Source: a virus
Length of the DNA stretch: 56,821 nucleotides
IMG/VR virus record: IMGVR_UViG_3300009181_000084
Location: 1-56,821 of that record
Reading direction: 5' to 3' (one strand)
Each line of letters starts with the position of its first letter. The first letter of the stretch is position 1. Of this stretch, positions 2,940 through 4,206 are shown piece after piece. Below the pieces are notes generated by a model, which saw nothing but the letters and a program-made list of their open reading frames with translations, was not told the origin of the DNA and did not search any database. The translations under genes and the position numbers were made by a program.

Positions 2940-2970
2940 AAAAAAATAAGTAAGGGTATAACCCCTACTT
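2940..2970 (-). terminator. Terminator overlapping the stop of 2965-3165
   Basis: Minus-strand AAGTAGGGG/CCCTTACTT-type stem with one bulge and a TTATA loop, followed by a run of T residues. Confidence 0.55.
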
Positions 2971-3165
2971 AGTTCTTATAATCTCAAATATTAATAAGTT
3001 TGCACTTACTATCTGTATTTGATATTTAACTAACTCACCTTTAGTAATGAGTGAGTTAATAAAAGCTTGGATTTGACTCATGCTTTTAATTTTTGAGGTA
3101 GTTTCACCTACCATTTCTAATGATGGATCCACCATCATTAGAGTAACTTTAATATCTGTTCTCAT
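2965..3165 (-). CDS. Unknown small early protein (66 aa)
   Basis: Reads MRTDIKVTLMMVDPSLEMVG, then a helix-forming segment (SKIKSMSQIQAFINSLITKG) and a beta-like end (VKYQIQIVSANLLIFEIIRTK). It is the most promoter-proximal minus-strand gene, next to the divergent control region. Upstream element copy 8 lies 16 bases before its start. No family recognised; a compact alpha/beta fold is plausible. Confidence 0.55.
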   Translation of the reverse strand: MRTDIKVTLMMVDPSLEMVGETTSKIKSMSQIQAFINSLITKGELVKYQIQIVSANLLIFEIIRTK

Positions 3166-3180
3166 AATTCTAAAATTTCA

Positions 3181-3202
3181 TAATGGTTATGAGTTGAATT
3201 CT
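3181..3202 (-). promoter_or_regulatory. Repeated minus-strand upstream element, copy 8
   Basis: Most diverged copy (GGTTATGAGTTGAATTC core), 16 bases before the start at 3165, the closest spacing of the set. Confidence 0.45.
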
Positions 3203-3211
3203 TTTAAAACA

Positions 3212-3272
3212 ATGGGGGGTACCAGCTAGGCCTGAAGGGCCGGGGGGTTTGCTATGGAGGGTCCACCTCCAT
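3212..3272. other. G-rich island at the divergence point
   Basis: In otherwise AT-rich DNA this stretch has two G6 runs (3214-3219, 3242-3247), GGG at 3237-3239 and GGAGGG at 3256-3261. It also has GGCC-TGAAG-GGCC (3229-3241) and a perfect ATGGAGG/CCTCCAT hairpin (3254-3260/3266-3272). It could form a G-quadruplex on the plus strand. It separates the minus-strand early cluster from all plus-strand genes. Confidence 0.6.
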
Positions 3273-3276
3273 CTCA

Positions 3277-3322
3277 TGCATATACAAAATGTGTCCACTA
3301 CATCTTACTGCATATACAAAAT
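3277..3322. repeat. 14-base direct repeat, 32-base spacing
   Basis: TGCATATACAAAAT occurs at 3277-3290 and again at 3309-3322. The 32-base period is about three helical turns, so both copies face the same side of the DNA, as expected for paired operator sites. No other copy was noticed in the window. Confidence 0.55.
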
Positions 3323-3373: not shown

Positions 3374-3381
3374 TATATTTG
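3374..3381 (+). promoter_or_regulatory. TATATTTG -7 box
   Basis: Matches the Bacteroidota TAnnTTTG box. A transcript from here would reach the terminator at 3429-3458 after about 70 bases, so it either makes a short RNA or reads through into 3487-3750. Confidence 0.4.
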
Positions 3382-3428
3382 TATGTATCATAAATTTTTT
3401 TTTAAATTTATTAGTTTATTAGGTAAGG

Positions 3429-3486: not shown

Positions 3487-3750
3487 ATGCAGTTATATAG
3501 AGAAAGGCCTAAAAGTATTGAGGCTATACAGTATGATGGTACAGAAGAATGTGCTATTAAGATTTCCGGGTATGAGTATTTTACAGGACACATTAATTAT
3601 ATCAATCATAAATTTGATAGCTTTTTTCTTACTACTAATAATGGTGATCTTAAGTTAACCCCGGGGGACTATGTTATAAAAGATTGGTACGGGGAATATA
3701 CTTTGATGCCAGAAAAAATTTTTAATAGGATGTATAAGGTATTTGAATAA
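3487..3750 (+). CDS. Small conserved phage protein, 'RERPKSIEAIQ' type (87 aa)
   Basis: The frame opens at 3454, but that start lies upstream of the -7 box at 3460-3467, so the ATG at 3487 (MQLYRERPKSIEAIQY) is chosen. The layout matches a small protein family common in phages of many hosts: an N-terminal YR.(K/R)P...EA.Q(W/Y), a middle of variable length, then PGDYVIKDWYGEY and a C-terminal IFNRMYKVFE. Its function is not known to me. The gene has its own promoter and is followed by another -7 box at 3755. Confidence 0.75.
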   Translation: MQLYRERPKSIEAIQYDGTEECAIKISGYEYFTGHINYINHKFDSFFLTTNNGDLKLTPGDYVIKDWYGEYTLMPEKIFNRMYKVFE

Positions 3751-3915: not shown

Positions 3916-4206
3916 ATGAGTAAAGCAATTAAAAGTCTTAAGGGACGTAGAGTATTAATCAGTCAGCCAGAAAGAAAAGAATCTGTGATTGAATTAAGTG
4001 AAGCTGATAAAGCACACATGGATACTGAGGACATGAAGAAGTGGACCAAGTTAACAGTGTATGCAGTTGGTGAAGAAGTTAAAACTTTAGAGGCAGGTGA
4101 TGTAGTTTACATTGGTGTTAATTCTATCAAGAATGCAGAAGCAATTGAAGTTGATGGAGGTATTAAGTTGATGGTAAGTGAATATGATATTGCAATAGTA
4201 TGGTAG
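3916..4206 (+). CDS. GroES-like co-chaperonin (96 aa)
   Basis: The layout fits the GroES/gp31 fold: an N-terminal beta strand LKGRRVLISQPE, a polar stretch where the mobile loop belongs (residues about 20-42), then AVGEEVKTLEAGDVVYI. That last part parallels the GroES AVG...LDVKVGDIVIF segment. It closes with IKLMVSEYDIAIVW, matching the GroES ending VLIMSESDILAIV. Length is typical. Phage co-chaperonins such as T4 gp31 replace host GroES to fold the capsid protein inside GroEL; the same role is inferred here. It overlaps the next gene by seven bases, implying translational coupling. No GroEL gene is seen in the window, so it would work with host GroEL. Confidence 0.75.
   Translation: MSKAIKSLKGRRVLISQPERKESVIELSEADKAHMDTEDMKKWTKLTVYAVGEEVKTLEAGDVVYIGVNSIKNAEAIEVDGGIKLMVSEYDIAIVW

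Follow-up and report, generated by a model that had tools for sequence, protein, structure and literature searches.

A conserved G-run element at the strand divide of crAss-like phages and its probable role as a packaging or terminus signal

A short G-rich island at 3212-3322 of a viral DNA raises the question of which function would keep such a feature exactly between genes transcribed in opposite directions. The window, meaning the whole stretch analysed here, is an IMG/VR virus record, a linear fragment of 56,821 bp. From its proteins, the virus can be assigned to the crAss-like phages, its terminase TerL matching phrog_6681 (E 1.7e-61), its portal phrog_6547 (E 1.2e-82) and a tail protein the Pfam ring family CrAss_Ring_1 (E 2.8e-11), while tblastn searches with TerL and portal matched 132 and 130 phage records, respectively, largely crAss-like ones. 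A sequence-only reading had offered three explanations for the island, namely an operator of an early/late switch, a packaging site or an origin.

The island and its surroundings in the window

The GC content of 3212-3322 is 49.5% vs 30.7% window-wide, bearing out the strong contrast in base composition that had first drawn attention to the locus. The sole place in the window where a 60-bp sliding stretch reaches at least 58% GC is 3205-3290, and the only two plus-strand G6 runs, at 3214 and 3242, both lie in the island. Its location at the minus/plus transcription divide also held, the island being flanked by the last minus-strand ORF (2965-3165), where a series of small minus-strand genes ends, and by plus-strand ORFs starting near 3490. 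The records of two relatives, of 106,750 and 121,494 bp, again show the island as their sole 60-bp stretch of at least 58% GC, with one long plus-strand block to its right and one minus-strand block to its left. At the other side of the minus-strand genes, positions 1-940 of the window contain ~900 bp with little sign of coding, and similar DNA is found in loci L016 and L021. The features of the locus are the following:

3186-3198, minus strand: leader motif TTCAACTCATAAC ahead of the first minus-strand gene, probably an early one, one of eight motif matches in the window
3214-3223, plus strand: box 1, GGGGGGTACC; 66 of 69 distinct islands have GGGGGTACC without mismatch, in part by construction
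3224-3240, plus strand: variable spacer with the short stem GGCC-TGAAG-GGCC, whose pairing is not kept as a consensus structure
3241-3247, plus strand: box 2, CGGGGGG, the second G-run, 28 nt past the first (alignment A1)
3248-3258: predicted genome terminus, the putative right end of packaged DNA, by homology with phages DAC15 and DAC17
3254-3272: perfect 7-bp hairpin ATGGAGG-GTCCA-CCTCCAT covering box 3, a local feature that is not conserved
3258-3267, plus strand: box 3, AGGGTCCACC (alignment A1)
3259-3290, plus strand: repeat unit 1 (box 3 and box 4), ending in TGCATATACAAAAT, with 23 of 32 positions equal to unit 2
3291-3322, plus strand: repeat unit 2 (box 3-like and box 4), ending in TGCATATACAAAAT, a second partial match of the HMM
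3374-3381, plus strand: TATATTTG, probable plus-strand transcription start by sequence likeness, with a similar copy 86 bp on
822, 1340, 1811, 2068, 2445, 2713, 2932 and 3198, minus strand: leader motif TTCARCTYnnAAC, from a motif search of the window

The box at 3374-3381 resembles the Bacteroidota -7 box, and we take it to be a candidate promoter. Other features were observed on this side of the island. A conserved, GC-richer block (GTGCCAGACACGCTTCCCGTAAGATCAGCG..CCTGGGGTTTTT), which looks like a small RNA gene with a terminator and for which Rfam searches of six relatives gave no match, follows the first plus-strand promoter in relatives; its 23-mer occurs in 17 stretches, including L003 (5997-6019) and L012 (3130-3152), and is lost in the window near 3384. 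In addition, TAGGTAAGGAA stands directly before terminator-like hairpins at 3421 and 4788 of the window, and also in relatives, with a TATATTTG-like box directly after these hairpins in the window's phage and its relatives alike.

A conserved array in viral contigs and named phages

The conserved core consists of GGGGGTACC, a second G-run ~28 nt on, AGGnnC (box 3) and then TCTCTTACATA..AAAA, which is box 4 of alignment A1. Two pattern scans and a profile HMM together detected at least 69 distinct islands in viral contigs. Many matches of the first loose pattern were chance ones in unrelated contigs, and solely loci scored by the profile HMM were kept; two of the 69 islands lie too near the locus end, leaving a reference list of 67, and 54 entered alignment A1. 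The exactness of GGGGGTACC in 66 of the 69 is partly due to construction for contigs found by pattern, not for those found by protein. The patterns demand GGGGTACC, CGGGGG and, in one scan, AGGnnnC, which means that these letters owe part of their constancy to the search itself. As for spacing, GTACC is separated from the second G-run by 22-25 nt in 56 of 67 islands, and the AGG of box 3 lies 15-17 nt from the start of that run in 46 of 67. All 44 islands that could be scored by strand majority (at least three ORFs on either side) sit at a minus/plus divide, as do 53 of 62 when the nearest ORF is considered. A homologue of a window protein is encoded at 63 of the 69 loci, with identities for the gene at 3916 going down to 38-50% in the distant island loci inspected.

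A protein search with gene 3916-4203 provided 39 confirmed loci. The island is carried by 22 of them, some identical or near-identical (e.g., L014 and L015), and the upstream length of the remaining 17 indicates that they start within the island or downstream of it. The sequence-only reading had proposed to look for the same island in relatives, its absence from close ones counting against the idea; all 22 loci spanning the site keep it. A search with the 18-mer GGCCTGAAGGGCCGGGGG gave seven stretches only, all of close relatives, and a scan with a minus-gene protein returned two loci only. The near-complete clade records G002, G003 and G018 contain one match each to the core model, that is, the single site per genome expected of pac, and the G-rich strand is the late strand, the polarity also expected of pac. 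Moreover, flanks reassort at the island: among 62 islands, 15 pairs share one flank at >80% identity with the other at background, and 7 pairs share both, a pattern compatible with a genome end or with any recombination joint that is conserved.

Features highlighted at first sight turned out to be absent or not conserved, the conserved ones being others. No canonical G-quadruplex (four G3+ runs with loops of 1-7 nt) exists in the whole window, and the four G-runs of the island fit a G-quadruplex definition solely with loops of up to 17 nt; the G-quadruplex element suggested earlier was consequently rejected. The hairpin is indeed exact at 3254-3272, but a box-3 hairpin of at least 6 bp appears in 4 of 54 aligned islands. 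Similarly, TGCATATACAAAAT has two perfect copies, at 3277 and 3309, and no other in the window, these 14-bp stretches being the tails of two 32-bp units with 23 of 32 positions equal; nonetheless, the second unit was detected solely in the window's closest relatives, tandem box-3/box-4 units being present in few islands and not in most members. From the initial description, the contrast in composition is confirmed and the repeats and hairpin are exact, while the canonical G-quadruplex is not found.

GC-richness, G-runs and short stems might also indicate that the island encodes or shapes an RNA (a structured leader, a terminator or a G-quadruplex), and a structured-looking block to its left in some relatives points the same way. 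Nevertheless, the window contains no canonical G-quadruplex motif, the island region folds no better than its dinucleotide shuffles (z 0.04 and -0.69), no covarying stem is detected in the 54 aligned islands, for which RNAalifold predicts 2 invariant pairs only, and Rfam at gathering thresholds gives no match in the window or in six relatives. We consider this explanation most improbable, and a structured RNA was rejected because folding, alignment folding and Rfam were all without signal. The island behaves as a DNA signal, not as an RNA. The structured-looking block itself comprises ~180 nt between the first minus-strand gene and the island (L111, about 400-580; also L074, L090, L102 and L085) and holds an inverted repeat such as ATTTTCTGCCAGGAAAAT or AACTTTTTGCCAGAGGTAAAAGTT, with a related form in L017, L042, L121 and L174.

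Among named crAss-like phages, the first eight examined gave no rightly placed copy with either the strict core model R1 or the strict pattern, the one R1 match in these being weak (E 0.48) and located elsewhere than the divide of phi14:2. A relaxed pair of G-runs (GGGG-N21-26-GGGG), written from the window clade together with Lbo-JY46, crAss001 and five other genomes before running, matches 18 of 19 named records, and its widened form (GGGG-N20-28-GGGG) 3 of 3 further ones, making 21 of 22, with cr273_1 as the sole record lacking a match. Eight named genomes were inspected before the pattern was fixed, and these 8 of the 22 are therefore not independent of its design; among the 14 independent records (11 + 3), 13 match and 11 do so at the divide. 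The reversed-pattern control equals the forward count because the pattern is self-mirroring, making it uninformative. The pair lies within 1.5 kb of a strand switch in 16 of the 22 records (0.99 expected, P ~3e-18 under uniform placement), namely crAss001, phi14:2, Lbo-JY46, cr55_1, crAss002, cr108_1, cr115_1, cr128_1, cr50_1, cr106_1, cr6_1, frurule, cr127_1, DAC15, Fpv3 and FPSV-S29. It is 2-3 kb off the switch in cr130_1, cr124_1 and Dulem 42, 16 kb off in csAssE-Sib, a doubtful match, and 22 kb off in phi17:2. These off-divide copies weaken the claim of a fixed place, and they weaken the operator reading as well. Wherever both were seen in named phages, the G-rich strand coincides with that of terminase and portal, a polarity that a packaging signal would be expected to show.

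The closest named phage, Leptolyngbya phage Lbo-JY46 (portal 31% identical), has by eye a degenerate copy at the divide that keeps GGGTCCACTAA. The recorded host of this phage (L282 / PP438436) is the cyanobacterium Leptolyngbya boryana; crAss-like phages are, to our knowledge, otherwise known from Bacteroidota, and the host label deserves a check. In crAss001 the G-runs are 28 nt apart and the element starts, again by eye, at position 133 of the record. The annotated minus-strand gene gp2 of this phage (L280, 279-680) overlaps a plus-strand reading with an HEIIH metalloprotease-like motif, and the interval that holds the element, 87-286, may be the true divide. Finally, the phi17:2 copy (L378), at ~109,080 on the minus strand, looks complete, includes a TACATACAAAAT box and is buried 22 kb deep in the early block.

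Annotated genome ends and the alternative functions

Bacteroides phage DAC15 has depositor-annotated exact direct terminal repeats of 1842 bp at 1-1842 and 97653-99494, and DAC17 repeats of 1839 bp at 1-1839 and 97062-98900, a depositor annotation that could reflect a convention of the depositors. The repeats were verified to be identical copy to copy in both phages, which are close relatives (96.8% over the region) and hence not fully independent. The DAC15 element starts at 1796, and the repeat ends as ...GGGGGGACCATGAGTTAAT^TAGAACCCACACC, 13 nt after the second G-run, the junction GGGGGGACCATGAGTTAAT^TAGAACCCACACCTACACATCAAAAA being placed one base before the box-3/box-4 homologue. The DAC17 repeat ends after the same GGGGGGACCATGAGTTAAT, likewise 13 nt past the second G-run, and begins at the same sequence as that of DAC15. 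The comparisons show the conserved element, where it lies, its orientation and its single copy, and also that it coincides with an annotated repeat end in two phages. For an end placed at random, the chance of being within 20 nt of the element is about four in ten thousand (40 positions in 97,652).

We consider it probable that the island is the packaging or terminus signal of a crAss-like phage, with the terminase cutting between boxes 2 and 3. The terminase complex would recognise an asymmetric array formed by box 1 (the G-run with GTACC) and boxes 2, 3 and 4, with boxes 3 (AGGnnC) and 4 (TCTCTTACATA..AAAA) sometimes in tandem, and would cut replicated DNA between boxes 2 and 3, in the window's phage at about 3248-3258 if the homology with DAC15 and DAC17 holds. 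Such a cut would make the right genome end, leaving the leftward early genes at the DNA tip, from where they would be transcribed inward, while in the other copy the late genes would start immediately after the cut; the early end would presumably be ejected first. The direct terminal repeats of DAC15 and DAC17 would arise from another cut, 1.8 kb further left, and in phages with no reported repeat the same signal may start headful packaging.

Some results count against this assignment or narrow it. Neither a small terminase nor an island-binding protein was identified in our analysis, which counts against a role in packaging. No clustering of contig ends is seen at the island (of 40 whole contigs, 3 end within 250 bp vs 2.69 expected), although a terminus does not strictly require it, given that terminal repeats can be bridged during assembly. 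A pac-type mechanism is predicted for crAss002 (PMC8042965). Three Bacteroides cellulosilyticus isolates are listed without DTR in another report (PMC10569736), and one of the three, frurule, has the element.

A replication origin, with boxes 3 and 4 as initiator-binding iterons and the A/T-rich tract to the right as unwinding element, shares many predictions with a packaging site. It would agree with the single copy of the element, the tandem box-3/box-4 units of some phages, the long A/T tracts to the right of the element in gut phages, and a cumulative GC-skew minimum that, in 11 of 16 element-bearing records, is no more than 1.6 kb away from it, a test confounded with gene direction and transcription. 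On the contrary, the skew switch tracks the transcription divide, the skew minimum of phi17:2 being at the divide and not at the element 22 kb away, the ends of DAC15 and DAC17 fall inside the element, and the second unit is found in few islands when tandem repeats would be expected in most members. An origin thus seems unlikely.

A transcription element, either an early/late operator or an entry site of the virion RNA polymerase for early genes, would in turn explain why the gene to the left runs away from the element in nearly all named phages, and the right-end early genes of crAss001 are transcribed first (PMC8375218). Nonetheless, we judge it quite unlikely. The leader motif TTCARCTYnnAAC precedes the minus-strand ORFs of the window with eight matches, all on the minus strand and none on the plus strand, so that each minus-strand gene has its own; the first one consequently needs no special element, making an operator less likely. 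In addition, both neighbours run the same way in 4 of the 22 named phages, and in some the element is found within the early block, at 2-22 kb from the divergence. The motif itself may be an early promoter or a leader; it is often preceded by a small hairpin and a terminator, and gives no minus-strand match in G003 or G018. Hence, among the three functions first proposed for the locus, packaging gains direct support from the annotated ends of DAC15 and DAC17, while the operator loses ground through the leader motifs and the off-divide copies.

A combined role might also be envisaged, in which one order-wide signal would serve both as terminase cut and as loading point of the virion RNA polymerase. 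The cut leaving the early operon at the DNA tip, the end with the G-run and hairpin would enter the cell first, and the signal would be kept across the whole crAss-like order and freshwater relatives. We regard this double function as possible but doubtful.

Implications and comparison with known systems

crAss-like phages are among the most abundant human gut viruses, and packaging sites are usually known phage by phage. If the packaging assignment is true, a cis signal recognisable from sequence across families would make the ends of many uncultured genomes predictable, give circular assemblies a natural start, and allow the terminase site to be tested directly in phages available in culture, e.g., DAC15 and crAss001. 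A packaging site with constant layout over an order, and beside early genes, would be unusual. No description of a one-layout signal across crAss-like families was found in the literature searched, which did not cover the main virion RNA polymerase structure paper; genome-end signals are a known kind of thing, and the single order-wide layout appears new within that literature. Packaging mechanisms of crAss-like phages are referred to as yet to be established in a passage of a 2023 review (PMC10136315).

Regarding known systems, the hairpin promoters of the N4 virion RNA polymerase are similar in being hairpin-capable DNA by early genes, and the island's phage group carries its RNA polymerase as well. 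They differ in that the stem pairing of the island is not conserved, with 2 invariant pairs only in the 54 islands in place of a conserved N4-type hairpin with a 3-nt loop, and in that the early genes of the island's phage have their own leader motif. Headful pac sites, the type predicted for crAss002 (PMC8042965), share a unique polar site that could initiate packaging, whereas the annotated termini of DAC15 and DAC17 are fixed at both ends. The cos sites of lambda-type phages also combine a GC-rich cut region with repeated binding sites on one side, a likeness of layout, and DAC15 and DAC17 differ from them in having long terminal repeats. The ends of these two phages offer the nearest parallel: even though DAC15 has GGGGGTATAACCCC in place of GGGGGTACC, the order of the boxes, their spacing, strand and location at the gene divide are the same as in the window, and the repeat ends between boxes 2 and 3.
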